Of a DNA stretch of 55,251 nt, positions 8,807 through 29,200 are shown in pieces. The position numbers were made by a program, and so were the translations under genes. Position 1 is the stretch's first letter; each line of letters starts with the position of its first letter. This stretch comes from Bacteroidota bacterium (GTDB lineage: Bacteria; Bacteroidota; Bacteroidia; Palsa-948), in contig JACRAM010000061.1 of assembly GCA_016213405.1 (NCBI GenBank), forward strand, positions 1 to 55,251, given 5' to 3'. The notes under the pieces are model-generated. The model was not told the origin of the DNA. It made no database searches and was given only the letters and a program-made list of their open reading frames with translations.

Positions 8807-10699
8807 ATGAGTATGAGCACCACACAAAGTATTCCGGTTGCAAAGAAAAGTAAAGGCAGTGCCGTTACTGTAAACCAGCATGTCGTTGAAATTGTAAGCG
8901 ACTCCGGAGAAGGGGCACAAAAAGCCGGACAAAGTTTCGGTTCTATTTCTGCCAAGATGGGAAATGGAGTTTGGACGGTAGAGATTATTCCTGCCGAAAT
9001 TCAGCCACCCGCAAGGTCAAGAGCAGGCGCTTCTGGTATTCGCATCCGTGTGGGCTCGGAGAAGGTTACAAACATGGGCGACCATGCCAATATTGTTGTC
9101 GCTCTGAACGAGCAAGTACTTTACGGACGAATATCTCAGGATGCTTATACTGAAGGCACGGTGATTTTACTGGAGAACAAATGGGCAAACAGCGATATTG
9201 ATTCCATAAGAAAAGAATACGCAACGGCTCTGGCTGATTTTAAGTCCAAAGGATATAAAGTCATCGGAATTCCGATGGAAGAAGAATGTATGAAATTTGT
9301 TTCCGATGCGCGGAAAGGAAAAAACATGTGGGTGCTTGGTATGCTTTGCCATATCTACAACCGTGATTTAACAAAAGCGGAAGAGCAAATCAGATATATC
9401 TTCAAGAAGAAAGCGGAAAAAGTTTTTGAAGCGAATGTGAACCTTTTAAAAGGCGGATACAATTGGGCAAAAGAAAATTTAGAGCTCAATTTTGAAATTC
9501 CTCCCTTAGAGAATGCCGGTGACCAGGTTGTGATGAACGGAAACGAAGCCATTGCATTGGGCACCTTGGCAGCCGGAATCGAAGTATGCGCAATGTATCC
9601 GATTACTCCAGCAACTTCTGCTTCTCACAAACTTGCCGAGTGCATTGAAAATGCCGGAGGAATTCTTCATCAAGCCGAAGATGAAATTGCTGCGATTGGT
9701 TTCGCCATTGGTTCTTCCTACGCAGGAAAAACGGCCATTACAATTACTTCCGGACCCGGTCTTGCTTTGAAAACAGAATTTATCGGATTGGCTGTGATGG
9801 CTGAAGTTCCCTTAGTAATCGTAAATGTACAAAGAGGTGGCCCCTCAACAGGTTTACCTACCAAAGTTGAACAGGGTGATTTGTTAGCTTCCTTATACGG
9901 AGAAGCCGGAGATGCTCCGAAAATAATTATTGCTCCCGCAACTATTGAAGAATGTTTTCAGTTTGTAATTCTGGCACGAAAACTTGCTGAGGCGTTTCGC
10001 ACTCCGGTTATTATACTGACTGACGCAAATCTTGCTACCGGTGTTTCACCTTTCCCTCGCCCGAAAATAAATGCAGAATGGCTTGCGGCTCCCATTGACC
10101 AAAGCCGCTGGAAAAAAGAAATCGCTCCTTACAACTGGGATCCTGAAACCGGGATAAGTCCTCGGCCAATCCCCGGACAGAAAGACGGCATGTACCGATT
10201 GACCGGACTAGCGCATGACCATAACAGCAAAGTGGCTTACGATCCGGAAATAAATCAGAAATCAAGTGAAGCCAGAAGCAGAAAGATGGCTGCTGTGCTG
10301 CAAACATTGAAACCGCCCAAAGTGAATGGTGATGAGAGCGGAGATTTACTGGTTGTTGGATGGGGTTCTACAAAAGGCGCAATTGAAGAAGCCGTTGCCT
10401 CAGCCAGAAAATCGGGACTTAAAGTAAGCAGTTTGCATATACATTTCTTAAGTCCGCTTGAGCCGGGATTAGAGGAAATATTTAAAAAATTTAAAAAGAT
10501 AAAAACGGTTGAACTGAATTACAGCGATAAGATTGGCGATCCGCTTATCACCAAAAAGAGCAGACGATACGCTCAGTTAGCTTGGCTTCTCAGAGCACAA
10601 ACACTTGTGGATGTGGATTGTTACAGCAACGTTTTCGGACAGCCAATTAATCCAAGCAAAGTACTGGACATGATAAAAGAAGAATTGAAAGCAAAATAA
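8807..10699 (+). CDS. korA: 2-oxoacid:ferredoxin oxidoreductase, gamma-alpha subunit (copy 1)
   Basis: A 630-residue KorA-type subunit. Residues about 25-210 form the gamma domain (VEIVSDSGEGAQKAGQSFG, with the acidic-glycine loop). Residues about 240-480 form the alpha pyrimidine-binding domain (GNEAIALGTLAAGIEVCAMY, then YPITPATSASHKLAE and QAEDEIAAIGFAIGSSYAG), followed by the domain II region (LLVVGWGSTKGAIEEA). It pairs with KorB to oxidise a 2-oxoacid (2-oxoglutarate or pyruvate-like) with CoA, yielding CO2, acyl-CoA and two reduced ferredoxins. It is the first gene of the array leading into rnf. Substrate cannot be fixed from sequence. A paralogue lies at 34250-36166. Confidence 0.92.
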   Translation: MSMSTTQSIPVAKKSKGSAVTVNQHVVEIVSDSGEGAQKAGQSFGSISAKMGNGVWTVEIIPAEIQPPARSRAGASGIRIRVGSEKVTNMGDHANIVVALNEQVLYGRISQDAYTEGTVILLENKWANSDIDSIRKEYATALADFKSKGYKVIGIPMEEECMKFVSDARKGKNMWVLGMLCHIYNRDLTKAEEQIRYIFKKKAEKVFEANVNLLKGGYNWAKENLELNFEIPPLENAGDQVVMNGNEAIALGTLAAGIEVCAMYPITPATSASHKLAECIENAGGILHQAEDEIAAIGFAIGSSYAGKTAITITSGPGLALKTEFIGLAVMAEVPLVIVNVQRGGPSTGLPTKVEQGDLLASLYGEAGDAPKIIIAPATIEECFQFVILARKLAEAFRTPVIILTDANLATGVSPFPRPKINAEWLAAPIDQSRWKKEIAPYNWDPETGISPRPIPGQKDGMYRLTGLAHDHNSKVAYDPEINQKSSEARSRKMAAVLQTLKPPKVNGDESGDLLVVGWGSTKGAIEEAVASARKSGLKVSSLHIHFLSPLEPGLEEIFKKFKKIKTVELNYSDKIGDPLITKKSRRYAQLAWLLRAQTLVDVDCYSNVFGQPINPSKVLDMIKEELKAK

Positions 10700-10845: not shown

Positions 10846-10892
10846 AAGCCGATTGAAAGTCCTTCCCTTCGGGAAGGATTTAGGATGGGCTC
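10846..10892. repeat. Partial copy of the 84-bp palindromic element
   Basis: About 35 bases (10857-10892) are identical to the 3' part of the element inside the 1266-aa gene (16197-16231), including the hairpin CCTTCCCTTCGGGAAGG and the word GGATGGGCT. The first hairpin of the full element is absent here; only AAGCC at 10846-10850 remains of the left arm. It lies 16 bases before the korB1 start and so probably falls in its leader. Confidence 0.75.
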
Positions 10893-10907
10893 TTAACCAA
10901 TTACCAT

Positions 10908-11864
10908 ATGTTCGGATTAAAACCAGACCTCTGCAATGTTCCGCTCAGTGATGAACATTATTCATTGGAAGATTATGAAGGTGGTGTAGCCCGTTGGTGC
11001 CCCGGCTGTGGCGACCATGGCATTCTCACCTCTGTGCAAAAGTTGTGCAGAGAAAAACAATTAGTGCCTGAGAAAACTGTTTTCGTAAGCGGAATTGGAT
11101 GCAGCAGCCGTTTCCCTCATTACATGAACACTTATGGTTTCCACGGCTTGCATGGAAGAGCGTTTCCTGTTGCTTCAGGCGTAAAATTCCGCAGACCTGA
11201 TCTGAATGTGTTTGTTGTCACAGGTGACGGAGATTGTTGTTCCATCGGCACGGCACATTGGATTCATGCAATCCGATACAATATGAATATGACGGTTCTG
11301 CTGTTGGACAATAGCATTTATGGTCTCACAAAAAAACAAACCAGTCCGACAAGCGCTAGAGGAACTAAATCAAACACACATCCTGCCGGCTCTATTCTAC
11401 CTCCGATAAATCCAATCCAAACGACCCTGGGCGTATCCAATGTTTCTTTTGTTGCACAAACTGCCGATTGGAATCCCGCTCATGTTTACGAAACCATTAA
11501 AGCGGCATATGAGCATCCCGGATTTTCATTTGTACGCGTGGTTCAGCGATGCCCTGTATACATGCGCGATTTATACGATGCGGCTGTGACAGATCCCACT
11601 GCATTGACATTGCTTACGCATGAAAATGGAATTAAGCTTCATGAGAAGGTGGAAAAAAGTTTTAAAAATATTATTAAGCACGATCCAAGCGATATTAATA
11701 AAGGAAGAGAATATGCTGAATTGAAAGACAGTATTCCAATCGGGCTTTTCTATCAGAATAAGAATGCCCCCCGTTACGATGAGTACGGAGCACACAACAT
11801 TGGAATGCCTGTGGAAGAACGCCTTGACGCTATTAATAAAGAGCTAGATAAATATGCAGTGTAA
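10908..11864 (+). CDS. korB: 2-oxoacid:ferredoxin oxidoreductase, beta subunit (copy 1)
   Basis: A 318-residue KorB, the thiamine-diphosphate-binding subunit. WCPGCGDHGILTSVQ (about residues 31-45) gives two of the cluster or TPP-loop Cys residues, and [19 protein letters not shown] the next. The TPP/Mg signature VVTGDGDCCSIGTAH is intact (about residues 103-117), with the Mg-ligand Asn about 25-30 residues downstream in LLLDNSIYGLTKKQ. The final 70 residues include GLFYQNKNAPRYDEY, a common KorB tail. It is separated from korA1 by 208 bases that hold two palindromic elements, which is unusual for subunits needed in equal amount. Catalytically it appears complete. Confidence 0.92.
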   Translation: MFGLKPDLCNVPLSDEHYSLEDYEGGVARWCPGCGDHGILTSVQKLCREKQLVPEKTVFVSGIGCSSRFPHYMNTYGFHGLHGRAFPVASGVKFRRPDLNVFVVTGDGDCCSIGTAHWIHAIRYNMNMTVLLLDNSIYGLTKKQTSPTSARGTKSNTHPAGSILPPINPIQTTLGVSNVSFVAQTADWNPAHVYETIKAAYEHPGFSFVRVVQRCPVYMRDLYDAAVTDPTALTLLTHENGIKLHEKVEKSFKNIIKHDPSDINKGREYAELKDSIPIGLFYQNKNAPRYDEYGAHNIGMPVEERLDAINKELDKYAV

Positions 11865-11881
11865 ATAAACCTATTAATCAT

Positions 11882-14398
11882 ATGGTGAAATCAAAAAACA
11901 CTTCAAAAGAATTACTGTTTAATGAATTCCTGAAGGAAGAAGCACTTACATCCGCACAAGAAGTTGAAGTTGCTTTAGAGATTGACAAAACAGAAACCAT
12001 AAGCTACAAGTTTCCTGCTCCTTCAGCAGCAACAGAAGATGAAATAAAAAACCAGTGGCGCACCATAAGAAATTATTTCCGCACGGGTGAAAAACCCAAA
12101 GGCGCTGAATCCGCGGGACTCATGCCCGTTTTACTCGCACCATATCTTACCAGTGAAGAGTTAACCACCGATTATCCTGTTTTTCTATCCGAGGAAAATG
12201 AGATTGCAAATTGCTGCTTTTCTGATTTACTTGGCCGCACTTTCAAAAAAACATTTAAAGAAAAAGAAGCAGCAATCTTATTGAAATACTTTCCCAAGAT
12301 CGAAAGTTCCGTCAGGAAACATGTTTCCAAAGCAAATAATTTCTGTTCGTTGAAATCCGCTGTTGATAACGCTCTCCATGAGCTTTCCAAAATAAAAGTA
12401 AATGGCGAAGACGGAATTAATTTCTTAAAAGACATTGAAAAGTTCAAAATCAATCTTCCGACAACAGGAAATCTGCTGGGATTTTCACAACAGACACCGA
12501 TACACTTGCTCGTTCATTTACTAAAGTATCAGTTTCATCAAAAGAGAAAAACCTTCCTGTTAGAAATTCACCGCTTAAAGTCCGGGCTGCAGGATTTAAT
12601 AGCAGTTGAAAAGGGCAATGTTTCAAAAGATGAAACTTTTGATTTTGCTGATTCGCTTATTGAATTTAAAAAACTGGACACGCTTATGCCCGAAAGCGCT
12701 TCGGTGTCAATGCCAAAGAAAAGAACGGAACGTATTGTTAATTGCATCAACGCTCTGGACTCCGCGGAAAATTTATTGTTAAACAATGAGAGTATCATAT
12801 ATATAGGTAAAGCTTTATCCGAAAATTCAAATTTCAAATGGAAAGAACTGCTACAGAGTCTTGATGTGCGAATTGCCGCTGCCAATGAAAGTTGCTCATC
12901 CGCGGTCGATAGTTTCAAAACACATATTTCCAAGCTTGCTAAATTAATTGGGCAAGTGAGGATTGCTGAGTTAGAAGTTAAAAATAACTATGACGAAGAA
13001 ATCCACTCGGATTATTTTACACGATTCAACTGGCATTATTTCACCGAAGAAGAAACAGCACTTTGTCCTCCGGTTGTTTTAATCGAGGAAACTCAAAATC
13101 TTTTAAGAAAAGAGTTGCCGCATTTTTCTGCATTGATATCTTCAAACAAACCAATAAAAGTGTTGGCAATTAACAGGCCTACTCCTTTTAAAATAAATAA
13201 GAACGGAAATGAATCGGATGAATTACTTTCTTTTCAGCAGGAACTGAGCGCACTGGCTGTTTCTCACAGAAATGCTTTTACACTTCAAAGCGCTTCACAT
13301 AATCCAATTCATCTTTTATCAGGAATGGAATCGGGACTTGCTTCATCCGCTCCTGCTTTGTTTCATGTTTTAATTTCTTCCGGTTTAAATAATACTGAGA
13401 GTCAGAATTTTCTTGACATCAGTTCAGCAGTGGAAGGAAGGCAGTTCCCTTTATTCACGTACAATGCAAAAGATAAAAGGTGGGGAAGCAGATTTAACAT
13501 TAATGCTAATCCTCAACCCGATAAAAACTGGCCAAAATATTCTTTTGAATTAAAAACCGATAAAGAAAAAAATGAAAAACTTGAGCTGGCATTCACCTTC
13601 GCGGATTTCTATGCCGTGAATACTGTCAACAATAAAAATTTATTTATTGTTCCTCCTTCCTGCTGGTCAGAAGATTTAATTCCTTTGAGTGAATATCTTG
13701 AACAGTCTTCCGAGAAATTGTATTCTAAAGTTCCGTTCATCTGGCTGGCAGATAACGAAAACACTTTGCATAAAGCTGCAGTGCCCTATTCACTTGTGAT
13801 TGCCGCAAAAGAACGTTTGGATTTCTGGAATTTCATTCAGGAATTAGGCGGAGTAAACAGTTATCATGTTGAACAGGCAGTGAATCGCACACATCAGGAG
13901 TTGCAGGAACAAAAAGAAAAAGAGATTAAGGAAATTGAAAGCAAGTTTGAAAAACAAATAGAAGAAGTCCGGTCAACTGCTGCCGGAGAAGCAATGGATA
14001 AACTGGCAGGAATTCTGCTTGATCTTGACAGCATTTCCACTTCACCAGCAACAAAAATTTCAAAAAAATCTTCTTCCTCCGAAACCAAAGAAATAAAACC
14101 GGGAGAAACTTCTCCTGCTGTTACCACAATCGAAAAAGAAGTTTCAGTTTCTACCGAACCCTGGATTGAAACTTTCAGATGCACTTCCTGCAATGATTGC
14201 ACAGATAAATATCCGAGAGCATTCAAATATGATGGAGAGAAACAGGCATACGTGGATGACCCCACAACCATAACTTACGCTCAAATGGTAAAGGCGGCAG
14301 AAGCTTGTCCCGCAAAATGTATTCATCCCGGCATGCCGTTAAATCCAAACGAACCGGGACTGGAAGAATTAATCGCAAGAGCGAAACCATTTAACTAA
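11882..14398 (+). CDS. Degenerate PFOR-like protein with C-terminal [4Fe-4S] ferredoxin domain
   Basis: An 838-residue protein, 17 bases after korB1. The first 300 residues carry GLMPVLLAPYL (from about residue 79) and long helices. Residues about 355-690 resemble the beta region of long PFOR-type enzymes and the C-terminal third of the 1266-aa protein at 15401-19201: a RIAELEVKNNY block, then WHYFTEEETALCPPVVLI. At this point family enzymes read GGDG for TPP/Mg; here it reads VLIEETQNLLR. A coiled coil follows (HQELQEQKEKEIKEIESKFE), then a ferredoxin domain with Cys767, Cys770, Cys773 and Cys809 (CTSCNDC, then CPAKC; Cys813 is extra). It appears to be a non-catalytic electron carrier. Comparison with PFOR is from memory, not alignment. 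Confidence 0.65.
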   Translation: MVKSKNTSKELLFNEFLKEEALTSAQEVEVALEIDKTETISYKFPAPSAATEDEIKNQWRTIRNYFRTGEKPKGAESAGLMPVLLAPYLTSEELTTDYPVFLSEENEIANCCFSDLLGRTFKKTFKEKEAAILLKYFPKIESSVRKHVSKANNFCSLKSAVDNALHELSKIKVNGEDGINFLKDIEKFKINLPTTGNLLGFSQQTPIHLLVHLLKYQFHQKRKTFLLEIHRLKSGLQDLIAVEKGNVSKDETFDFADSLIEFKKLDTLMPESASVSMPKKRTERIVNCINALDSAENLLLNNESIIYIGKALSENSNFKWKELLQSLDVRIAAANESCSSAVDSFKTHISKLAKLIGQVRIAELEVKNNYDEEIHSDYFTRFNWHYFTEEETALCPPVVLIEETQNLLRKELPHFSALISSNKPIKVLAINRPTPFKINKNGNESDELLSFQQELSALAVSHRNAFTLQSASHNPIHLLSGMESGLASSAPALFHVLISSGLNNTESQNFLDISSAVEGRQFPLFTYNAKDKRWGSRFNINANPQPDKNWPKYSFELKTDKEKNEKLELAFTFADFYAVNTVNNKNLFIVPPSCWSEDLIPLSEYLEQSSEKLYSKVPFIWLADNENTLHKAAVPYSLVIAAKERLDFWNFIQELGGVNSYHVEQAVNRTHQELQEQKEKEIKEIESKFEKQIEEVRSTAAGEAMDKLAGILLDLDSISTSPATKISKKSSSSETKEIKPGETSPAVTTIEKEVSVSTEPWIETFRCTSCNDCTDKYPRAFKYDGEKQAYVDDPTTITYAQMVKAAEACPAKCIHPGMPLNPNEPGLEELIARAKPFN

Positions 14399-14401
14399 TC
14401 T

Positions 14402-15295
14402 ATGGTTAATGAAATAATCATAGCCGTAGTTATTCTCACGGGACTTGGTCTTTTGTTTGCCGCTATTCTTGCTATCGCCTATAAGAAACTTAAAGTGTGG
14501 GAAGACCCGCGCATTGATGCTGTTGAAGGAATGCTTCCGAAAGCAAATTGCGGTGCCTGCGGTGTGCCCGGATGCCGCGCTTTTGCGGAAATGGTAGTTA
14601 ACAAAACAATTAATCCGGGAAAATGTACAGTGAGTTCACGTGTTGCAGTTGATAGCATTGCAAGTTACATAGGTGTTGAAGCAAGTATCGGAGAAAAAGT
14701 TGTCGCGCGCCTTTTATGTGCGGGTGGAAAAAATGAAGCTCATAACATAGCGGATTACAAAGGAGGTTTAAGCACTTGCCGCGGTGAAGCGCTTGTTGCT
14801 GGCGGACCAAAACAATGTTCGTGGGGATGTTTAGGATTAGCAGATTGTGAAAAGGTTTGCGCTTTTGATGCTATAAAAATGAATGACAACGGACTTCCTG
14901 TTGTGGACATTGTCAAATGCACCGCGTGTAATGATTGTGTTGAAATTTGCCCCAAGGGAATATTTGTTTTGATGCCTATTGGACAGAAATTAATTGTTCA
15001 ATGCAAATCGCTGTTGGAAGGAGATGATGCGGAAGATAAATGCTCAGTTGCCTGTACTGCCTGCGGAAGATGTGTTGCCGATGCTGCACCCGGATTGATA
15101 GAGATAAAAAATAATCTGGCCGTGATTAATTACGAATTAAACAAGCTTTCTTCTCCCGAAGCAATCAAACGCTGTCCGACAGATGCAATAGTATGGCTGG
15201 AAAATTCCAAACAGTTTGACATAACAGAAAAATCAGAACTGCCTATAGGAAAAGTGGAAAGTTTATCTGATTTAGAAAATGTTTATTATCAATAA
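14402..15295 (+). CDS. rnfB: Rnf complex subunit B (Fe-S entry subunit)
   Basis: RnfB receives electrons from ferredoxin at the cytoplasmic face. The 297-residue protein has one N-terminal membrane helix (residues about 4-27), then the RnfB-specific motif NCGACGVPGC (about residues 49-58) with a further Cys downstream in GKC, which together hold one [4Fe-4S] cluster. More cluster motifs follow: CSWGCLGLADCEKVCAFDAI, CTACNDCVEICPKGIF, CSVACTACGRC and RCPTDAI, giving several more clusters. It starts 3 bases after the 838-aa gene, so the two are closely coupled. In most Bacteroidota rnfC follows directly; here a 3.8-kb PFOR-like gene lies between. Confidence 0.93.
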   Translation: MVNEIIIAVVILTGLGLLFAAILAIAYKKLKVWEDPRIDAVEGMLPKANCGACGVPGCRAFAEMVVNKTINPGKCTVSSRVAVDSIASYIGVEASIGEKVVARLLCAGGKNEAHNIADYKGGLSTCRGEALVAGGPKQCSWGCLGLADCEKVCAFDAIKMNDNGLPVVDIVKCTACNDCVEICPKGIFVLMPIGQKLIVQCKSLLEGDDAEDKCSVACTACGRCVADAAPGLIEIKNNLAVINYELNKLSSPEAIKRCPTDAIVWLENSKQFDITEKSELPIGKVESLSDLENVYYQ

Positions 15296-15400: not shown

Positions 15401-18400
15401 ATGAATATGAAAACAAATTATCATAATCTATTGGGGAAACAAATCAGCATGTCAGCAAAAAATGCTGCATGGTATCTTTCCTCTTCAATTTGCGAAAGTA
15501 TTTTGTCTTCTGAAAGCAGCAAGTCAGCCGATAAAAATATTTTCGGACGGCCGTTAGCTTTTTCAACTTCAAGTGATATTTCTTTTTCAATTGGTTTTGC
15601 TTCAACAGGATTGAGAGCAGGGACTATTTTGAATTCAAGTGAAATATCATCCAATATTGAAAGCATTGCGAATGCAGTCAGATTGCATATTCCGCTTGTA
15701 ATTTTTTCCAGCGTTGAATCTCAGTTTCAGGTAAATCAGTTTTCGCAAACAGGAGCAGTGGTTTTTTCTGCAGTCACTTCTCAGGAAGCTTTGGATTTGT
15801 TGCTTGTCTCTTATCGAATAGCTGAATTGTCACTCATTCCTGTTGTGGTTTGCATGGAAGAATCAATTAGTAATACAGAAGAAAATATTTTATTTCCCGA
15901 AAAAGAAACTCTGATAAATTTTGCAGGAAGCACAGACATTCTGATTTCAAGCCCTACTCCTTCTCAGCAAATGATTTTCGGCAAAAGCAGAAAAAGAATC
16001 CCAAACTGGTTCAATATTGACAATCCTGTTTCCATCGGTGCTGGAAAACAACTGAACGAAGCAGGACTCGAAACAGCTGCGCAGCAGGAATATTTTTATA
16101 ATCATCTGGAAGCAATTATTAATGATTCATTTCAGGAACTTAATAAAAAAGCCCATCCCCCAACCCCTTCCCAAAGGGAAGGGGAGTGGTGTATGCAAGT
16201 CCTTCCCTTCGGGAAGGATTTAGGATGGGCTTCTTATCTGGTAATTAGTTATGGCGGTATTTCTCCTGCAGTGGTGAAAGCTATTGACGAATATAATTCG
16301 AAGAATAAAATTAAAACCGCTTCCGCGCGACTTGTTCAGATAAATCCATTCCCAGCTAAAGCAATCAAGACGATTCTTGCAGGGAAAAAAGTTATTACTA
16401 TTCTTGAGCAGGCAACCGAAGGAATTAATCATTCGAATATTTTTAAAGAAGTTTCTTGTTTATCCGAAGCGAAACAATTAAAAGTTTTTTCAGGAAATTA
16501 TGGCTCTATTCCCACTTCAAATACTTTGCTTGAGGTAATAGCGAACATGTTGCCAGGTGGAAAAGGAAAATCAAAATTCTGGATTGATATTGATTTCACA
16601 CATTCCAATTCCAATTATCCCAAACATCAGGTATTGATGCAGGCGATTGACAGGGAATATCCCGACATTCAAAATAAAATAATTACTGCGGAAAATAAGT
16701 TCCAAATCCCAAGTTCCAAATCCCAAGCTCCAAATATCACAACTAAAATCAGGAGATATAACGATCAGGGTCCTGCCTATACAAAATTGTCGAGGTTCTA
16801 TGATGACACTGCAAGTTTCTTTCATACAAATCCAGAAGAACTTGTTGCAGATCCGTTTCAGGCAATTCCTGTAATGCCCCCGTCAACTGCGAATTTCAAT
16901 TATGCCGCTTCAGAGAAAAAACTTTTGCCCGTCTTCCTTTCGGATAAATGTACCGGATGCGGAGATTGTTTTCTGCATTGCCCGCATTCAGCAATAAATC
17001 CTTTAGTGATGGGCGTAGAAAATTTAATTAAAGCGGGTATTGCTATTTCAAGTTCTAACGGAGTTAAGATTACCCAACTCACTCCTTTAGTAAAAAATAT
17101 TGCTAAAAATATTCACGAAGTAATAAAACAAAACAAAGGAAAGATTTATTCTGTATCCGATTTCATTCCGACTGCCTTTGAAAATGTCGCTCAACAAATG
17201 AAATTGGAGGGCGATAAGTTGCAGGCAGCAAAACAAGATGCTGAATCAGTAACCTCCGCTTTAAAAAAATTGCCCATATCGGTTACTGATATTTTTTACA
17301 ACACTCCCGAACTCATTAAAAAAGGAAGTGGAGAATTATTTTCATTGACGATTGACACTAATTCTTGTACCGGTTGTTCCGTTTGTGAAACTGTTTGCAA
17401 TGATGATGCTCTGAAAATGACAGAACAAAATTCCGGAATCATTTCCGTGCATCAGGAAAAGTATTCTTTGTGGGAGCAAATGCCCGATACCAGCGGTGAA
17501 ACTATTTTACGGCTGCTGGATGAAAAAAAATACAATTCATTCTCTGCAATATTGCTGAGCAGATATTTTAATCAAGCGTTGAACGGGAAAAGCAGTACCA
17601 AAGATGGTGACGCAAGCAAATCAATAATTCATCTGGTGACAGCAGTTGCCGAAGCAACAATTCAACCGAAGATAAAAGAGGCAATAAAGACCATTGACGA
17701 ATTGATTACAGGATTGTCCCAGAACATTCACGATCAGCTTGGTTCTGCGTTGCCATCACAGGACTTTGAAGCACTTTCAAAAGTTCTTTCGGAAATAAAG
17801 GAAGACCGAAAACCTTTTGAAGAGGTGATTGAAAAACTCGGAACTGGAGATCGCCTTAAACTGGTGGATACAAAAAGTTTAAAAAGAAAAGTCGACCTGA
17901 CTGAAGCACTAAAAAAATTAAAATGGCTTACCAGCGATGGTTCTACAGGAACAGGCAGGGCAAGAATGGGAATTGCATTAGATGCTTCTTTAGATTGGAG
18001 CAATTCATATCCATGGAATAATTTTACTTCTCCTGTGTTAATTCAACTGGGTGGCAGCACTCCGGAACTTGCAAAAGGAATTGTGCAGGGACATATCCGG
18101 CAAGTTCTCGACAATATCAAAATTTTACGAAGAGCAGAACTTGAAATTAACGGCAAGTACGAGCCGGGCATTAACGATGCACAGATTGCTTCGCTAACAT
18201 GGAATGACTTAACAGAAAAAGAAAAAAATCTTGTCCCTCCGATTATTCTTATTGGCTGTAGAGCCAGACTTGCAGGAAAAAATTTGAATTCACTGGGCAA
18301 CATGCTCGATTGCAATTTTCCGCTAAAGGCGATTGTACTTGATGATGCAGTTCCTTCGATAGATAATTCCGCTGCTGATATTATTGGAGGTGTCGGAGCA

Positions 18401-19201
18401 TTGCTTCCTGCATTGGCATTGCAAAATGCACATGTAATAAAAAGTTCTCTCGCGGTTCCGCAACATTTGTTTGCCGGATTGTCAGAAGCATTTCAAAGTA
18501 ACAAGCCGGCTTTAGCATGGGTGTTTGCTCCGGCACCTTCAAAACATTTAATTCCTTCCGAATCATTTCCGAAATTACATTCCCTCAGTCTGAGTTCAAG
18601 AGCATTCCCGATTTTCAATTTCAATCCACATCGGGATGGAAAATTGCTTTCGTCAAAAATTGAACTGGAAGGAAATCCTCAAAGTGAATCTTTTTGGATG
18701 CAAAGCGATTTGGTCTATAAAGAAAATGGAGAAGATAAAACGCTCTCTTACTCTTTAACATGGGCTGACTGGGCTTACACCTTGAAATCCTGGAAAGAAA
18801 ATTTTATTCTTCATAATGAGGCAATGGGAAAACCAGTTCTAGTTTCTGAATTTGTTTCATTATCAAAATCAGAACGAACAGGAAAATCTCCAGTAATATA
18901 TCGAATCAACCAAAATGCAGAGTTAATAAAATACAACGTATCGGAGAAAGTGATTGCAGCTACAGAGTCATGTATCAAAGCATGGCAGGTGTTACGGGAA
19001 ATCAGCGGTGAGTTATCGGACTTCCCTGAAAAATTGCACAAGAAAATGGAAACGGATATTTCTGATAAGTATGAAAAAAAGAATTCTGAAGCAAAAAAGG
19101 AGTTTGAAAATAAAATTACAAATCTTGAACATGAACATCTGCAGAAAATACGAATTAAACTGAAAGAGAAATTGGTAATGCTTTCAAGGAATAAGGTATA
19201 A
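15401..19201 (+). CDS. Giant PFOR-like protein with two [4Fe-4S] clusters and a degenerate TPP domain
   Basis: A 1266-residue protein with PFOR-like layout. Residues 1-245 resemble the pyrimidine-binding domain (FSQTGAVVFSAVTSQEALDL, then WFNIDNPVSIG). Residues 280-390 match the next domain (LVISYGGISPAVVKAI, ARLVQINPFPAKAIKTILA, GNYGSIPTSN). A bacterial-ferredoxin-like part has Cys517/520/523/527 and Cys656/659/662/666, so two [4Fe-4S] clusters. The C-terminal half matches the beta region (FTSPVLIQLGGSTPELAKGI, RRAELEINGKYEPGI, LVPPIILIGCRARLAGKN), but the expected Cys-rich loop, GGDG and SNTGGQ signatures are absent. Residues about 250-278 come from an inserted palindromic repeat. It ends in a coiled coil. 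I infer a non-catalytic ferredoxin-like adaptor between KorAB and Rnf. Confidence 0.7.
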   Translation: MNMKTNYHNLLGKQISMSAKNAAWYLSSSICESILSSESSKSADKNIFGRPLAFSTSSDISFSIGFASTGLRAGTILNSSEISSNIESIANAVRLHIPLVIFSSVESQFQVNQFSQTGAVVFSAVTSQEALDLLLVSYRIAELSLIPVVVCMEESISNTEENILFPEKETLINFAGSTDILISSPTPSQQMIFGKSRKRIPNWFNIDNPVSIGAGKQLNEAGLETAAQQEYFYNHLEAIINDSFQELNKKAHPPTPSQREGEWCMQVLPFGKDLGWASYLVISYGGISPAVVKAIDEYNSKNKIKTASARLVQINPFPAKAIKTILAGKKVITILEQATEGINHSNIFKEVSCLSEAKQLKVFSGNYGSIPTSNTLLEVIANMLPGGKGKSKFWIDIDFTHSNSNYPKHQVLMQAIDREYPDIQNKIITAENKFQIPSSKSQAPNITTKIRRYNDQGPAYTKLSRFYDDTASFFHTNPEELVADPFQAIPVMPPSTANFNYAASEKKLLPVFLSDKCTGCGDCFLHCPHSAINPLVMGVENLIKAGIAISSSNGVKITQLTPLVKNIAKNIHEVIKQNKGKIYSVSDFIPTAFENVAQQMKLEGDKLQAAKQDAESVTSALKKLPISVTDIFYNTPELIKKGSGELFSLTIDTNSCTGCSVCETVCNDDALKMTEQNSGIISVHQEKYSLWEQMPDTSGETILRLLDEKKYNSFSAILLSRYFNQALNGKSSTKDGDASKSIIHLVTAVAEATIQPKIKEAIKTIDELITGLSQNIHDQLGSALPSQDFEALSKVLSEIKEDRKPFEEVIEKLGTGDRLKLVDTKSLKRKVDLTEALKKLKWLTSDGSTGTGRARMGIALDASLDWSNSYPWNNFTSPVLIQLGGSTPELAKGIVQGHIRQVLDNIKILRRAELEINGKYEPGINDAQIASLTWNDLTEKEKNLVPPIILIGCRARLAGKNLNSLGNMLDCNFPLKAIVLDDAVPSIDNSAADIIGGVGALLPALALQNAHVIKSSLAVPQHLFAGLSEAFQSNKPALAWVFAPAPSKHLIPSESFPKLHSLSLSSRAFPIFNFNPHRDGKLLSSKIELEGNPQSESFWMQSDLVYKENGEDKTLSYSLTWADWAYTLKSWKENFILHNEAMGKPVLVSEFVSLSKSERTGKSPVIYRINQNAELIKYNVSEKVIAATESCIKAWQVLREISGELSDFPEKLHKKMETDISDKYEKKNSEAKKEFENKITNLEHEHLQKIRIKLKEKLVMLSRNKV
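16149..16232. repeat. 84-bp cloverleaf palindrome inserted in frame in a coding gene
   Basis: Outer arms AAGCCCATCC (16149-16158) and GGATGGGCTT (16223-16232) are perfect complements. Between them lie two further hairpins, CCCCTTCCC-AAA-GGGAAGGGG and CCTTCCC-TTC-GGGAAGG. The element is 84 bases, exactly 28 codons, so it adds residues of the type AHPPTPSQREGEW without breaking the frame. Its 3' part recurs at 10857-10892. Confidence 0.85.
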
Positions 19202-19207
19202 GAAATT

Positions 19208-20554
19208 ATGAATTCAACATTAACCTTCAGGCACGGAATCCATCCCGAAGAATACAAAGAGCTATCGGAACATTGCAGGGTGGAACGAATGCCTTTTGTA
19301 GAAGAATATATTTTACCTCTTGCACAACATTTGGGAGCGCCAAGCAAACCCCTGGTGCAAAAAGGAAATAAAGTAAAACGAGGACAAAAAATTGCAGCAG
19401 CAAACGGTTTTGTTTCTGTTGCACTTCATTCACCAGTTGACGGAACTGTTACCGGAATTTCTCTTGCTGAGAATCCGAACGGACAAATGGTTCAAAGCAT
19501 AATTATCAAAGCAGATCCTTTTTCTACACAACAACTTACTCCTTCTATTCCGAAGTCCTATGAAGAAATGAATGTGAAAGAATTTATTGCTTCGGTTCAG
19601 GACGCAGGCATTGTTGGATTGGGTGGCGCTGCATTTCCGGCTCATGTTAAATTTTCTATCCCCGAAGGGAAAACCTGTCGCTACATCATGCTGAATGGCT
19701 GCGAGTGCGAACCGTTTCTTACTTCTGACCACAGAACAATGGTTGAATATCCCGATGATGTGATGGATGGAATCAGAATCCTCCAGCATTTTTTAAAAGC
19801 AGAAAAAATATTTATAGGTATTGAAGCAAACAAACCTGATGCGATAAATATTCTTCATGAGAAAGCCAAAAACTCAGGACTTCCAGTAGAAGTAATTCCA
19901 TTAAAAGTAAAATATCCGCAGGGAGCAGAAAAGATGATGATCAACGCCATCATTGCCAAGGAAGTTCCAAGCGGAAAACTTCCATTGGATATTGAAGCCC
20001 TTGTAACAAACATCAGTTCCATTGCCGCCATCAGCCAATGGTTCCGAAAAGGACAGCCGCTCATTGAAAGGATTGTTACCGTAACGGGCACAGCAGTGAA
20101 AAGACCTGCAAATATTTTAGTTCCCTTTGGAACTCCCATGCGTGATGTAGTGGAATTGTGCGGAGGAATTACTTCCGAGGCTGCAAGAATTTTACTCGGT
20201 GGACCCATGATGGGCATGGTTCAGAAATCACTTGACATTCCTGTTGTAAAAGGAACTTCCGGAATTCTGATACTGACTTCGGATGAAGTAAAAGACCTTT
20301 CACAATATACTTGTATCCGGTGCGGCAGATGTCTGGAAGCTTGTCCCATGTATCTCAATCCTTCTCTGCTTGGCATGCTGGCAAAAAAAGGTCTGTGGGA
20401 AGAAATGGAAACGAATCATATATTGGATTGCTTTGAATGCGGATGTTGTTCTTACGTTTGCCCTTCGGGAATTCCGTTGGTGCAGAGTTTCAGAGTAGGA
20501 AAATCTATTATTCGGGAACATAATGCCAGAGAAAAGGAAAAAGAAAAAGTATAA
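19208..20554 (+). CDS. rnfC: Rnf complex subunit C (NADH/FMN-binding subunit)
   Basis: RnfC carries FMN and the NAD-binding site and passes electrons between NAD and the membrane part. The 448-residue protein has the N-terminal biotinyl-like domain, VGLGGAAFPAHVKFSI (about residues 137-152, the flavin/nucleotide glycine-rich loop) and NGCECEPFLTSDHRTM, then two [4Fe-4S] motifs, CIRCGRCLEACPMYLNP and CFECGCCSYVCPSGIP, near the C-terminus. It is close to the short form of RnfC without the long Ala/Lys-rich tail seen in gamma-proteobacteria. The start ATG at 19208 lies 6 bases after the giant gene. Confidence 0.95.
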   Translation: MNSTLTFRHGIHPEEYKELSEHCRVERMPFVEEYILPLAQHLGAPSKPLVQKGNKVKRGQKIAAANGFVSVALHSPVDGTVTGISLAENPNGQMVQSIIIKADPFSTQQLTPSIPKSYEEMNVKEFIASVQDAGIVGLGGAAFPAHVKFSIPEGKTCRYIMLNGCECEPFLTSDHRTMVEYPDDVMDGIRILQHFLKAEKIFIGIEANKPDAINILHEKAKNSGLPVEVIPLKVKYPQGAEKMMINAIIAKEVPSGKLPLDIEALVTNISSIAAISQWFRKGQPLIERIVTVTGTAVKRPANILVPFGTPMRDVVELCGGITSEAARILLGGPMMGMVQKSLDIPVVKGTSGILILTSDEVKDLSQYTCIRCGRCLEACPMYLNPSLLGMLAKKGLWEEMETNHILDCFECGCCSYVCPSGIPLVQSFRVGKSIIREHNAREKEKEKV

Positions 20555-20559
20555 ACAAT

Positions 20560-20643
20560 GATTACGAAGATTTCAGAACAGATTACAGAGATTTTGGTTA
20601 TGGTTTTTTATCGCTGTAATCTTGTAAAAATCTTTGTAATCTC
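20560..20643. repeat. GATTACA-type nested palindrome, third copy
   Basis: The 97-base gap between rnfC and rnfD is almost filled by this element: outer arms starting GATTACGAAGATTTC (20560) and ending AAATCTTTGTAATCTC (20643), inner arms AGATTACAGAGAT (20580-20592) and ATCGCTGTAATCT (20610-20622). It is the third copy in the same operon. Confidence 0.75.
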
Positions 20644-20651
20644 AAAATAAT

Positions 20652-21656
20652 ATGAGCGAAGAAAAAAAATTAACAGTTTCTACATCCCCTTTCTTACACG
20701 ACAAGGCAACTACTCCCTGGATTATGTATCAGGTTGTATTTTCTTTGATTCCAATCATCGGAGCTGCTTATTATTTCTTCGGACTGGGAGCAATGGCTGT
20801 ACTGTTTTTTTCAGTTGCGGGGTGTTTTTTTATCGAACAATTATTCAGTAAATCTTTTTTCAGTGGCGATAAAATAAAAGACGGAAGCGCATTAATCACC
20901 GGTCTTCTGCTGGGATTAACATTGCCTCCGGGCTTTCCTTTGTGGATGGCTTTTCTCGGAGGAATTGTTGCTATCGGAATGGGAAAATTAATCTGGGGAG
21001 GATTAGGCATGAATGTTTTCAATCCCGCTTTGGTAGGAAGGGCTTTTTTGCAGGCGGCATTTCCTACTGCCATCACAACATGGTCGCCACCCGATGGAAG
21101 ATATTTTAGTTTCAGAGGAACAAACATCGGCTATCCTTTTTTTCAAGCTGATAATGTAGATGGAATAACCACCGCCACTCCTTTATCCAAAATGAAATTT
21201 GACCATGTGTTTGCCAACTGGCAGGATTTGTTTTTCGGCAATACAGGAGGATCTCTTGGCGAAACCTGCGGCATACTTTTTCTGCTCGCAGGAATTTATC
21301 TTATTGCCCGTAAAATTATTCATTGGAGAATTCCGGTTGCAATTATTCTCACAGTTGTAATTTTCTCGGGTATCTTTTGGTTGATTGATCCGGCAAAATA
21401 TCCAAGTCCGGTATTCATGCTTTTTTCAGGAGGACTGATGTTGGGAACAATTTTTATGGCAACCGATTTAGTTACATCGCCCATCACTCCGAAAGGCGCA
21501 TGGATTTATGCAATCGGAATAGGAATTTTTATTGTATTGATTCGTCTTTGGGGAGGTCTCCCTGAAGGTGTGATGTATGCTATTTTGCTGATGAATGCGG
21601 CAACTCCTTTACTAAACATTTTAGTTAAAGTAAAACCATTTGGATATAAAAAATAA
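20652..21656 (+). CDS. rnfD: Rnf complex subunit D (membrane, covalent FMN)
   Basis: A 334-residue polytopic membrane protein of the NqrB/RnfD family. The segment DGITTATPLSKMK (about residues 172-184) is the family site where a Thr carries covalently bound FMN. PRESENT also are the conserved blocks DGSALITGLLLGLTLPPGFP and NVFNPALVGRAFLQ. About nine to ten membrane helices are visible. Its stop overlaps the rnfG start by one base. It requires an ApbE-type flavin transferase for its FMN, one of which is encoded at 32914-33942. Confidence 0.95.
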   Translation: MSEEKKLTVSTSPFLHDKATTPWIMYQVVFSLIPIIGAAYYFFGLGAMAVLFFSVAGCFFIEQLFSKSFFSGDKIKDGSALITGLLLGLTLPPGFPLWMAFLGGIVAIGMGKLIWGGLGMNVFNPALVGRAFLQAAFPTAITTWSPPDGRYFSFRGTNIGYPFFQADNVDGITTATPLSKMKFDHVFANWQDLFFGNTGGSLGETCGILFLLAGIYLIARKIIHWRIPVAIILTVVIFSGIFWLIDPAKYPSPVFMLFSGGLMLGTIFMATDLVTSPITPKGAWIYAIGIGIFIVLIRLWGGLPEGVMYAILLMNAATPLLNILVKVKPFGYKK

Positions 21657-22369
21657 TGGAAGAAGCTGAAAATACTGACAACAAACCTTCTGCTCAGGAA
21701 AGTACCGGAGAAAAAGAACCCAGTTCCCTTCGGCTTATTCTGACTTTGGGTATTGCGGGATTTCTTGCCGGTCTGATTATGGTGAGTACTTATCTTTATA
21801 CCAAACCATTGATTGAAGCTAACAAAGCTGCGGCTATTGAAAAAGCCATCTTTAAAGTATTACCCAAATGTACTTCCTTCAAAACGCTGGAACTTAAAGA
21901 CGGAAAACTTTCAGAGTTTGACATTAAGAATAAAACAGCAAAAGGAGAAGCGCCAAAGCTTGTTTACCAGGGATTTGATTCCACAAAGGCGATGATCGGC
22001 TTTGCAATACTCGGCAGCGAGATCGGATTTGCTGATGTAATCACTATTTTAATGGGATACGATGCCAACAAGAAAATCATTATTGGCTATGAAGTGCTGG
22101 AATGCAAAGAAACTCCCGGACTGGGAGATAAGATTTTTAAAAAAGCTGACTTCCTGAAAAACTTTACTTCTCTCTTGACTGAACCTGAAATTAAATTCGC
22201 CAAGCATGGAGAAAAGCATAACCCAAACGAAGTGGAAGCGATTACAGGCGCAACCATCAGTTCAAAAGCCGTCATTCGTCTTCTGAATAAATCAATGAAA
22301 GAATGGAAAGGACCCATAAATGATTTTATTAATTCCAACGACAATAAACCTTCTGAAGCAAAAAAATGA
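21656..22369 (+). CDS. rnfG: Rnf complex subunit G (covalent FMN, extracytoplasmic)
   Basis: A 237-residue RnfG/NqrC-family protein. A membrane anchor lies at residues about 28-48, and an extracytoplasmic FMN-binding domain follows with YEVLECKETPGLGDKI (the family ETPGLG motif) and EAITGATISSKAV, where the second Thr of GAT is the covalent FMN-phosphothreonine. An acidic, low-complexity N-terminus (about 25 residues) precedes the helix. It overlaps rnfD by one base and rnfE by four (ATGA), showing tight coupling. Confidence 0.94.
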   Translation: MEEAENTDNKPSAQESTGEKEPSSLRLILTLGIAGFLAGLIMVSTYLYTKPLIEANKAAAIEKAIFKVLPKCTSFKTLELKDGKLSEFDIKNKTAKGEAPKLVYQGFDSTKAMIGFAILGSEIGFADVITILMGYDANKKIIIGYEVLECKETPGLGDKIFKKADFLKNFTSLLTEPEIKFAKHGEKHNPNEVEAITGATISSKAVIRLLNKSMKEWKGPINDFINSNDNKPSEAKK

Positions 22370-23001
22370 GCGAAGAAAATAAAAGCCGGGCGATGGAGGA
22401 ATTCACAAAAGGATTGTGGAAAGAAAATCAGATTTTCGTTACCATACTCGGAATGTGTCCTTCGCTTGCTGTCACCAACTCTGTCATTAACGGTTTGGCT
22501 ATGGGAATTGCAACAACGTGCGTGCTTATCCTCTCAAATTTGCTGATCTCACTTTGCAGAAATATAATTCCAAACCAAGTGCGGATTACTGCTTTTATTG
22601 TAATCATTGCTACACTTGTTCAGGTCATTGATTTCTTTATGGCGGCACTTGTTCCGGATGTTCACAAAGAACTTGGCGCTTTTATCGCCCTCATAGTTGT
22701 TAACTGCATTATCCTTGGCAGAGCAGAATCATTTGCTGCAAAAAATAATCCATGGCTTTCTGTTGTAGATGGAGCCGGAATGGGATTAGGATTTACGTTT
22801 GCTCTAACTGTGATTGGAATAATCCGTGAAATCCTTGGCAACGGCTCGCTGTTTAATATTTCTTTATTCGGACCTAAATTCGAACCCTGGATAATTATGA
22901 TACTTCCTCCGGGTGGATTTATTACTCTTGGATTTTTGTTATTAGGATTCAGCTGGTATGCTCAGCGAAAAATAAATAAGTTACAACAAAAGAAAAAATA
23001 G
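22366..23001 (+). CDS. rnfE: Rnf complex subunit E (integral membrane)
   Basis: A 211-residue protein with six predicted membrane helices, of the RnfE/NqrD family. Recognisable blocks are FTKGLWKENQIFVTILGMCP at the N-terminus, IALIVVNCIILGRAESFAAK (with the conserved Cys of the intramembrane Fe-S site) and a DGAGMGLGFTFAL block. With RnfA it forms the inverted pair through which electrons cross the membrane. It overlaps rnfG by 4 bases and stops 2 bases before rnfA. Confidence 0.95.
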   Translation: MSEENKSRAMEEFTKGLWKENQIFVTILGMCPSLAVTNSVINGLAMGIATTCVLILSNLLISLCRNIIPNQVRITAFIVIIATLVQVIDFFMAALVPDVHKELGAFIALIVVNCIILGRAESFAAKNNPWLSVVDGAGMGLGFTFALTVIGIIREILGNGSLFNISLFGPKFEPWIIMILPPGGFITLGFLLLGFSWYAQRKINKLQQKKK

Positions 23002-23003
23002 CT

Positions 23004-23582
23004 ATGGAAAATTTAGTTTGGATTTTTGTTTCCGCTTTATTAATAAACAATTTTGTTCTTGCTTACTTTCTGGGGCTCTGCTCTTTTTTTGGAGTCACCA
23101 CAAAAATTGATACTGCCATTCGGCTGGGCGCAGCAAACACCTTTGTAATGATCATCACAGCTCTTAGTGTCTATGCTTTAAATAAATGGGTACTGGTGTA
23201 TGCACCCTATCTGCAGATGATTTGTTTCATCGTTGTAATTGCCAGCGCTGTTCAGTTTGTTGAAATGGTTATCAAAAAATTAAGTCCTGCATTATTTAAA
23301 GCGCTCGGTATATATCTCCCTTTGATAACTACCAATTGCGCCATACTTGCCATTGCGCTTTTTGCCACTAACAAGGGTTATGGATTGGTTGAAGGATTAG
23401 TTTATGCAATTGGTGCCGGACTGGGAATAACTCTTGCTTATGTGTTGCTTGCAGGAATCAGGGAAGAATCAAGACTGACCTACATCCCAAAATTAATTCA
23501 AGGCACTGCAATAAATATGATCATCGCAGGAATATTATCAATGGCATTCATGGGCTTTGCAGGATTATTCAGTTCTCATTAA
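23004..23582 (+). CDS. rnfA: Rnf complex subunit A (integral membrane)
   Basis: A 192-residue six-helix protein, homologous in fold to RnfE but inserted in opposite orientation. Blocks include INNFVLAYFLGLCSFFGVTT (with Cys of the Fe-S pair), YLPLITTNCAILAIALF (second Cys) and EGLVYAIGAGLGITLAYVLL. Together, RnfA and RnfE hold the membrane [2Fe-2S] centre and drive ion translocation. The standard core B-C-D-G-E-A is thus complete in this window. Confidence 0.95.
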   Translation: MENLVWIFVSALLINNFVLAYFLGLCSFFGVTTKIDTAIRLGAANTFVMIITALSVYALNKWVLVYAPYLQMICFIVVIASAVQFVEMVIKKLSPALFKALGIYLPLITTNCAILAIALFATNKGYGLVEGLVYAIGAGLGITLAYVLLAGIREESRLTYIPKLIQGTAINMIIAGILSMAFMGFAGLFSSH

Positions 23583-26212: not shown

Positions 26213-29200
26213 ATGCTCAATAAAATAATTCAGTTCTCTATAAAGAACAAACTCGTCATCGGGATATTTACGCTGTTCCTCATCGGTTACGGTAGCTACG
26301 AATTCACAAAACTCCCGATTGACGCAGTGCCCGACATCACCGACAATCAGGTACAGGTAATCACCATCACTCCAGCGTTGGGTGCTCCCGATGTAGAACG
26401 GCTTATTTCTTTTCCCATTGAACAGGTGAACAGCAACATTCCCGGCTTGAAAAATATCAGAAGTTTTTCCCGCTTCGGTTTGTCGGTGGTTACGATTGTG
26501 TTTGACGATGATGTGGATATTTATTGGGCGAGACAGCAAGTTACAGAACGGCTTCAACAAGCGCAGGAACAAATCCCAAAAGGTTTTGGAACACCAACGC
26601 TCGCACCCGTTACAACAGGGCTTGGAGAAATTTATCAGTATTCTGTACGCGCAAAAAAAGGATATGAAAATAAATATGACGCGATGAAACTTCGCACCAT
26701 TCAGGATTGGATTGTAAGAAGGCAGTTGCTCGGTGTGAAAGGAGTTGCCGATGTAAGCAGTTTGGGTGGATACTTAAAGCAATATGAAATTGCCGTTGAC
26801 CCCGCAAAGTTGCTTGCAAATAATATTACTATCAATGATATTTTCACTGCGCTGGAAAATAATAATCAGAACACAGGCGGAGCATACATTGAAAAGGGTC
26901 CGACAGTTTTATTTATCCGCAGTGAAGGATTGGTTGGAACTTTTGACGACATAAAAAATATTGTGGTCAAAAATCTTCCTAACGGAACACCGCTTTTGAT
27001 TGGCAATGTAGCGGATGTTCGTTTAGGAAGCGCGACACGATACGGAGCAATGACTTACAACGGAAAAGGCGAAGTTTCAGGTGCAGTGGTAATGATGTTG
27101 AAAGGCGCAAACAGCAATGAAGTAATTGAAAGAATAAAAGAACGCATCGTGCTAATTCAAAAAACATTGCCCGAAGGAGTGGTGATTGACGCTTTCCTTG
27201 ACAGAACAAAAATGGTGAACAGCGCCATCGGCACGGTAGAAACAAATTTAATGGAGGCCATTTTGATTGTACTTTTTGTGTTGGTTTTGTTTCTCGGAAA
27301 TTTCCGCGCAGGTTTTTTAATTGCATCCGTCATTCCGCTCTCCATGTTATTCGCGGTAATCATGATGAACCTTTTTGGCGTGAGCGGAAATTTAATGAGT
27401 TTAGGTGCGCTTGATTTCGGTTTGATTGTGGACGGAGCGGTAATTCTTGTTGAAGCCGTAATGCACCGCCTCACGCACAGCAAACATTTTGTAAGCATAA
27501 ATAAATTAAGTCAGCCCGAAATGGACGGAGAAGTGGGAACATCCGTAAGCCGAATTATGAACTCTGCCGTGTTCGGACAAATAATTATTCTCATAGTATA
27601 TCTGCCGATTTTTGCGCTCGAAGGAATTGAAGGAAAAATGTTCAAGCCGATGGCGCAAACCGTTGTGTTCGCTTTGCTTGGCGCATTCATCCTTTCGCTC
27701 ACTTATGTTCCGATGATGAGCGCACTATTTCTGAGCAAAAAGATTGCGCACAAAAAAACTTTTTCAGACAGAATAATGAACCGCCTCGACCGCATCTATC
27801 AGCACACGCTTGACAAAGTTTTGAATTTTCCAAAAACAATAATTGCATCAGCAGTTTTACTTTTTCTCATTGCAATTTTTGTAATGACAAAATTAGGCGG
27901 TGAGTTTATTCCTTCATTGGAAGAAGGCGACTTCGCTGTTGAAACCCGTGTACTCACAGGGAGCAATCTCACCACTTCTATGAATGCAGTTTCAACAGGA
28001 GCGAGAATTTTATTAGAGAAATTTCCAGAGGTAGAAAAAATTGTCGGCAAAACAGGAAGCAGTGAAATTCCCACCGACCCCATGCCAATAGAAGCAACGG
28101 ATATGATGATTATTTTGAAAGATAAATCAGAATGGACATCAGCAAAAACTTTTCCCGAACTCACCGAAAAAATGAGCAAGGCACTGGAAGATGTGCCCGG
28201 AGTTACTTTTGGTTTTCAATATCCCGTGCAAATGCGTTTCAACGAATTGATGACGGGCGCAAGGCAGGATGTGGTCTGTAAAATTTTCGGAGAGAATTTA
28301 GATACGCTCGCCCGCTACGGAAAAAAATTAGGCGACATCAGCAACACCGTTCAGGGCGCAAGGGATTTATATGTAGAAGCCGTAACGGGAATGCCTCAAA
28401 TTGTAATTCAATACAACCGTTCTGCCATTGCCCAATACGGTTTGAATATTTCCGACATCAATAATGTGCTGAACACCGCATTCGCAGGACAAAGCAGTGG
28501 ATTGGTTTACGAGGAAGAAAAGCGTTTTGATTTGGTAGTGCGTTTGAGTGGAGAGCAACGGAAAAATTTACAGGATGTGCAAAATCTTTTAATCCCCACT
28601 CCGAATGGAACGCAAATTCCCTTAAATGCAGTTGCAAAAGTTGAAATCACAGAGGGTCCGAATCAAATACAAAGACAAGACGCGCAACGCAGAATCATTG
28701 TCGGTTTCAATGTGAGCGGAAGAGATGTGCAAAGTATGGTGAAAGAATTACAGGAAAAAGTTGACAAGCAAATAAAATTACCCCCTGGATATTTTATCAC
28801 TTATGGAGGAGCGTTTGAAAACCTTGAAAAAGCAAAACAAAGATTATCCATAGCAGTTCCCGTTTCGTTACTGCTTATTTTTCTTCTGTTATATTTCACT
28901 TTCAATTCTGTGAAACAGGGATTGTTGGTTTACTCCGCAATTCCGCTTTCCGCCATCGGAGGAATATTTGCGCTGGCAGTTTGCGGAATACCTTTCAGCA
29001 TTTCAGCGGGCGTTGGTTTCATTGCATTGTTCGGGGTGGCGGTGCTGAACGGAATTATTTTGATAGCGGAATTTAACCGCCTGAAAAGTGAAGGCGTTGA
29101 CGATGTAAAAAGAATAGTCATTCAGGGAACAAAAATCCGCTTGCGTTCCGTGTTAATGACAGGAGCAGTTCCCGCATTAGGATTTTTGCCGATGGCAATA

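Follow-up and report, generated by a model that had tools for sequence, protein, structure and literature searches.

Y, a PFOR homologue encoded within an rnf operon

The window analysed in this work is a 55,251-nucleotide stretch of a Bacteroidota genome (GenBank assembly GCA_016213405.1, contig JACRAM010000061.1, positions 1 to 55,251), and it carries a gene cluster, all of it on the forward strand, in the order korA-korB-X-rnfB-Y-rnfC-D-G-E-A. We use Y for an uninterrupted open reading frame of 1266 amino acids (15401..19201) located between rnfB and rnfC, and X for a protein of 838 amino acids (11882..14398) encoded immediately before rnfB. The gaps around these two genes measure 17 bp (korB to X), 3 bp (X to rnfB), 105 bp (rnfB to Y) and 6 bp (Y to rnfC). 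Sequence comparison strongly supports that Y is a homologue of PFOR devoid of catalysis, a loss that was uniform across the Y proteins examined.

Pfam detected in Y the domains POR_N (residues 60-175, 33.1 bits) and PFOR_II (residues 277-364, 32.9 bits), both exceeding the curated cut-off, together with two 4Fe-4S domains; the PFOR equivalog model TIGR02176 scored 34.3 bits, below its cut-off of 911.35. AlphaFold modelling of residues 67-1266 (pLDDT 75.8) gave a structure that matched the PFOR/OOR alpha chain 9bt4_A (Z 28.0, root-mean-square deviation 2.6, 303 amino acids) as well as the OOR beta chain 5exe_C (Z 24.2, root-mean-square deviation 2.8, 271 amino acids). Since the model matches both kinds of chain, the fold of PFOR domains I, II and VI is retained in Y while the catalytic residues are gone. 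Domains I and II themselves (residues 60-364, 15578..16492) are degenerate, with the equivalents of T31 and E64 lost. Moreover, the alignment showed that the window copy has no domain III, the coenzyme A (CoA) domain, a deletion that had escaped the first-pass annotation of this DNA, and that this domain is deleted or decayed in several Y proteins.

To describe the active site we transferred the numbering of the D. africanus PFOR through the structures 1b0p and 7plm and used three intact PFORs (G165, G049 and G072) as references; what these residues do in PFOR is well established. The first-pass annotation had pointed to three anomalous segments in Y, namely STKDGDAS (from residue 732), LVPPIILIGCRARLAGKN (from residue 944) and AIVLDDAVPSIDN (from residue 977), as replacements of a Cys-rich loop, the GGDG motif and the SNTGGQ-like residues. 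The alignment bore this out, placing them at the CxxC loop of the proximal cluster, at GGDG and at DTxVYSNTGG of the intact PFORs, respectively. Thus, STKDGDAS stands for the ACxGCxE loop (residues 732-739, 17594..17617), GCRA for GGDG (residues 952-955, 18254..18265) and DDAVPSIDN for DTxVYSNTGG (residues 981-989, 18341..18367). The loss turned out to be fuller than described, as all four ligands of the proximal [4Fe-4S] cluster are gone from the window copy (C812 to K, C815 to D, C840 to a gap and C1071 to A) and not only those of the CxxC loop. At the positions related to thiamine diphosphate (TPP) and Mg, the changes are T31 to S, E64 to T, D963 to R, T991 to D and N996 to I, in agreement with the proposal that Y is a pseudo-enzyme; R114 has become E.

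Most of these positions are lost across the Y proteins as a whole. T31 and E64 were kept in none of 14 aligned sequences and R114 in 6/14; N996 was kept in 0/12, D963 in 3/12 and T991 in 1/12, and each proximal-cluster Cys in 0/13. YPITP, E64, the proximal-cluster cysteines and N996 are missing from every readable Y of the X-rnfB loci (type B, see below). The Y of locus L072 (11271-16007) displays remnants of TGGQ and GHDDYH and resembles a half-decayed intermediate.

The two distal clusters of domain V (CxxCxxCxxxC) are retained in the window copy, and the four-Cys motifs lie exactly where they had been annotated: motif A, CTGCGDCFLHC, at residues 517-527 (16949..16981) and motif B, CTGCSVCETVC, at residues 656-666 (17366..17398), both recognised by Pfam and by alignment. 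Across the Y proteins, the individual cysteines of cluster A were kept in 10-13 of 13 sequences and those of cluster B in 11-12 of 12.

A further feature missed in the earlier inspection is an 84-bp two-hairpin repeat element inserted in frame within Y (16149..16232), with the ends AAGCCCATCC and GGATGGGCTT. Copies of it occur in this and in sister genomes, and homologous Y proteins lack it; the insertion added ~28 codons and replaced ~17 native residues. Matches of Y residues 247-284 in sister genomes correspond to this repeat and were discarded as homologues. The spacer between korA and korB contains a divergent, incomplete copy (10854-10894).

X, a second PFOR homologue with a ferredoxin tail

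X matched no NCBIfam family, and the only Pfam domain above cut-off in it was a ferredoxin-I-type single [4Fe-4S] domain (residues 761-815, 14162..14326; Fer4_13, E=6e-8), comparable to ferredoxin I of PDB entry 1dax. The rest of the protein is recognisable as a degenerate PFOR domain VI: BLASTP aligned X with the C-terminal half of Y over 392 amino acids (E=1e-26), and residues 97-657 of its AlphaFold model (pLDDT 79.2) matched domain VI of the PFOR 6cio with a Z of 23.6. Long-form X proteins from other genomes also contain a decayed POR_N region and align with the intact G165 PFOR at E=9e-14. Because of the similarity to Y, the domain VI fold match and the decayed POR_N of the long forms, we regard X as a second dead PFOR; the GGDG, SNTGG and YPITP columns were kept neither in the aligned long forms nor in the window X. 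The four ferredoxin cysteines were present in 81/81 X sequences, 79 of them by pattern and the remaining two by eye. X, which has no curated family name, may be an overlooked subunit of KorAB. In two Thiotrichaceae/Thiomargarita loci (L126, 9695-12325; L135, 3221-5845) X stands beside a long gene resembling a P-loop NTPase, with no korAB, rnf or nfn genes nearby.

The korAB and rnf genes

KorA (8807..10699) is a fused gamma-alpha 2-oxoacid:acceptor oxidoreductase subunit that reached 541 bits with TIGR03710 (cut-off 482.75) and has the YPITPAT and QAEDEIAA motifs. KorB (10908..11864), the beta subunit, has intact TPP motifs (GDGD and NxxYGxTKxQxSPT). Both sets of motifs are invariant in the homologues compared, with YPITPAT and QAEDE kept in 59/59 KorA and GDGD and NxxYGxTKxQxSPT in 66/66 KorB sequences. 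The nearest solved chain to KorA is 6n2n, from the 2-oxoglutarate:ferredoxin oxidoreductase of Magnetococcus marinus; by analogy with this relative, the substrate of KorAB may be 2-oxoglutarate.

The six core Rnf subunits A, B, C, D, E and G are encoded together (14402-15295 and 19208-23582). RnfB (14402..15295) has the Pfam FeS (PF04060) and Fer4 domains, and its N-terminal half gave 57.8 bits with TIGR01944, under the 68.7 cut-off; RnfC (19208..20554) has RnfC_N and Complex1_51K. The remaining subunits were assigned by position and sequence, and their orthologs in the SAR324 operon are 62% (RnfD, 20652..21656), 48% (RnfG, 21656..22369), 65% (RnfE, 22366..23001) and 70% (RnfA, 23004..23582) identical.

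Distribution of X and Y

When 84,980 species genomes were scanned with an alignment of X, 275 stretches encoding it came up, and we read the gene order in 80 of them. In 47 of the 80, korA-korB-X is accompanied by nfnA and/or nfnB (type A), mainly in Alpha-, Beta- and Gammaproteobacteria, Acidobacteria and Kapabacteria. Another 16 have X followed by rnfB (type B) and belong to Rhodothermia and other Bacteroidota, KSB1, Calditrichota, Planctomycetota, SAR324 and Gammaproteobacteria. The remaining stretches were cut by contig ends or lacked both Nfn and Rnf partners, and no X locus among the 80 had the two kinds of partner together. Wherever the contig was long enough, the order korA-korB-X-rnfB-Y-rnfC was found, in several phyla; Y lies directly after rnfB in 14 of the 16 type-B loci, and the other two contigs stop inside rnfB. 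RnfB and Y were both absent from the five type-A genomes tested. Among the genomes tested, then, Y is confined to Rnf operons and X is common to Nfn and Rnf operons. In four loci (L029, 5793-8727; L106; L120; L124) the nfnAB-korAB-X operon has a further, more distant korAB pair next to it.

Within the window's genus, X was found in this genome only out of seven, and the N-terminal half of RnfB had no match in the four sister genomes tested. The nearest relative for most operon genes among the loci compared is a SAR324 locus (L146), and the window genome most likely received the operon as a whole. KorA, KorB and RnfC are 69%, 68% and 60% identical to those of this locus, while X and Y reach only 32% and 31%; X and Y thus evolve fast relative to KorAB and the Rnf subunits, which are 48-70% identical in the same genome pair. 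Nevertheless, in two near-identical loci the ratio of nonsynonymous to synonymous substitution rates (dN/dS) was 0.13 in the dead domain I of Y and 0.21 in X, and for X four further pairs gave 0.23-0.27. These low values indicate purifying selection, and thus that X and Y are maintained proteins.

Ancestry of X and Y

In a domain VI tree built with IQ-TREE, X (99.9/100) and Y (93.5/93) were each monophyletic, and both clades grouped with the Rnf-linked intact PFOR of another Bacteroidota genome, G165. That genome has the arrangement PFOR-rnfC-D-G-E-A-...-rnfB-korA-korB-X, its PFOR being intact, 1637 amino acids long and provided with its own C-terminal ferredoxin. With an intact PFOR before rnfC, and rnfB-korA-korB-X beyond the rnf genes, G165 displays the same set of modules with a live-looking PFOR at the position of Y. 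Identity to the window proteins is 69% for its KorA and 71% for its KorB, and its X falls inside the window's X subclade (93.6/99). FastTree placed this PFOR basal to X plus Y (0.99); because both X and Y evolve fast this branching may reflect long-branch attraction, and our argument does not rest on it. A PFOR located beside Rnf probably gave rise to both proteins, the ferredoxin tail being retained in X and the domain-V clusters in Y. In locus L031 (9009-12586) two adjacent genes (659 and 528 amino acids) encode the parts of a split PFOR whose TPP motifs are intact.

A putative link between KorAB and Rnf

On the basis of these comparisons, we consider it rather probable that Y belongs to an Rnf supercomplex as a subunit without catalysis and that Y and its paralogue X form the physical connection between KorAB and Rnf. 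The best supported division of roles has X as the KorAB partner shared by type-A and type-B operons and Y as the Rnf-specific part. Electrons from a 2-oxoacid and CoA would pass through the TPP of KorAB to the [4Fe-4S] cluster of KorB and from there to the ferredoxin domain of X; the two clusters of Y, where present, could serve as a parallel or onward relay, and X (and Y) would hand the electrons over to RnfB/RnfC and finally to NAD+, coupled to ion translocation. In the alternative direction, NADH and the ion gradient would drive 2-oxoacid synthesis. We infer the formation of the complex, the electron route and the direction of flow from gene content and sequence features.

Several observations weigh against this proposal. 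Gene order by itself is no proof of a complex. Furthermore, the complete Y of a Planctomycetota locus (L121, 13289-17914) has neither Fe-S motif left although the rest of its operon is intact, so the clusters of Y are not essential everywhere. The E1 component of 2-oxoglutarate dehydrogenase (OGDH) is encoded in 13/13 genomes tested, operon bearers included, which makes the physiological need for the system less evident; KorAB as the sole 2-oxoglutarate oxidiser is therefore not supported. In favour of the proposal, the host encodes a separate intact PFOR of 1191 amino acids on contig C69, which rules out Y as the sole PFOR of the cell. Since OGDH E1 is present in all the genomes tested and an intact PFOR elsewhere in the host, Y is not needed for catalysis.

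The first-pass annotation had suggested that Y was reused as an electron bridge, with KorAB supplying the real catalysis. In outline this idea holds. The intact motifs of KorAB fit its second part, whereas a bridging role of Y is plausible in this genome. As the ferredoxin motif of X is present in 81/81 sequences and both Y clusters are gone in L121 with the operon intact, the obligatory relay is more likely X, and Y would serve above all for docking or as a scaffold, while also bearing clusters in most lineages.

A more far-reaching version is tentative, its likelihood falling a little short of even: the operon would encode an ion-pumping 2-oxoacid:NAD+ oxidoreductase in which KorAB is docked on Rnf, with no free ferredoxin, through two dead PFOR paralogues that split the clusters of the ancestral PFOR between them, a system found in several phyla and apparently spread laterally as one operon. 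If this were true, an enzyme of central metabolism would give its electrons directly to an ion pump, bypassing soluble ferredoxin, and an enzyme would have been retained for its docking surface once its catalysis had died. X and Y, two widespread and undescribed protein families, would gain a testable role, while annotation by homology would mislabel Y as a pyruvate oxidoreductase and leave X nameless.

The same wiring could also run backwards: Rnf would draw on NADH and the ion gradient to send low-potential electrons by way of Y/X to KorAB, which would then make 2-oxoglutarate reductively, as in the reverse or reverse-oxidative tricarboxylic acid (TCA) cycle. This is possible, although we would not favour it: the operon occurs in relatives of sulphur oxidisers (Ca. 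Sedimenticola endophacoides, L136), where such a direction is plausible, passages of PMC6315080 and PMC11636981 describe korAB, rnf and reverse TCA genes in tubeworm symbionts akin to them, and the conventional OGDH is available for the oxidative direction, but the wiring is identical both ways and sequence cannot discriminate between them. It is unlikely, though less so than the readings that follow, that Y serves structure or assembly alone, as a scaffold holding KorAB-X against RnfB/RnfC, with X as the sole carrier and the Y clusters inherited and off the electron path. The cluster-free Y of L121 points in this direction, as do the Y proteins of L125 (Planctomycetota) and L074 (KSB1), which run into contig ends and have no motif A, the invariant ferredoxin of X and the deletion or decay of domain III in several Y. 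However, both four-Cys motifs persist in all the other complete Y proteins, from several phyla, despite ~25-30% overall identity, which implies selection on the clusters.

That Y retains a 2-oxoacid or other TPP-dependent activity, either because X or KorAB completes the site in trans or because the ligands are unusual, seems very improbable to us. The retained fold and domain I-VI arrangement and the remnants in the L072 Y would agree with it, but T31, E64 and N996 are lost in all the Y proteins covered and so is the proximal cluster, the acceptor of electrons from TPP. Rescue of the TPP site in trans by X is unlikely too, given that the aligned X proteins, long forms and window copy alike, lack the same GGDG, SNTGG and YPITP motifs. 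It is hardly conceivable, finally, that Y is a decaying pseudogene retained through linkage to rnf and korAB. Fast divergence, domain loss and an in-frame repeat element could suggest decay, but the frames are intact (1079-1578 amino acids) across several phyla, dN/dS is ~0.13 in the dead domain and the cluster cysteines are kept in most lineages; intact frames together with dN/dS rule this explanation out.

Comparison with known systems

Compared with single-chain PFOR (1b0p, 6cin, TIGR02176), Y has domains I, II, V and VI with the same fold, as well as the two distal [4Fe-4S] clusters, but differs in the lack of the TPP/Mg residues and of the proximal cluster, in the deletion of domain III (window copy) and in its fixed place in the rnf operon. 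The window encodes all six core subunits of the Rnf complex (RnfABCDGE), but korAB precedes them, and two additional PFOR-derived proteins are encoded just ahead of rnfB (X) and between that gene and rnfC (Y). Its KorA and KorB resemble the KorAB 2-oxoacid oxidoreductase in architecture and catalytic motifs, but are joined by a dedicated pseudo-PFOR carrying a ferredoxin.

Another comparable system is the 2-oxoglutarate:NADP+ oxidoreductase of Azoarcus evansii, which may contain an X homologue. The nfnAB-korAB-X operons of Rhodocyclaceae resemble a genetic counterpart of this enzyme, but they are without Rnf and Y. If X were a subunit of that enzyme, the protein would already be known, although its ancestry would have gone unrecognised.

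In the Riftia symbiont, passages of PMC11636981 report that the expression of a PFOR-like gene falls together with that of a dimeric korAB, korAB(3). Both cases pair a PFOR-like gene with a dimeric korAB and they are possibly the same system; the passages of that paper on the symbiont do not discuss a loss of catalysis. The 2025 Rnf review PMC12174285 gave no match for 2-oxoglutarate, supercomplex or fused. We found no prior description of the operon or of the dead PFORs X and Y in the literature searched, which left subscription papers mostly uncovered; nor did that literature yield papers naming rnfB, korB and operon together, or inactive 2-oxoacid oxidoreductase subunits.

Other features of the window

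Downstream of the operon, positions 26213-30571 encode an AcrB-type pump fused to an outer-membrane efflux protein domain in a single chain of 1452 amino acids.

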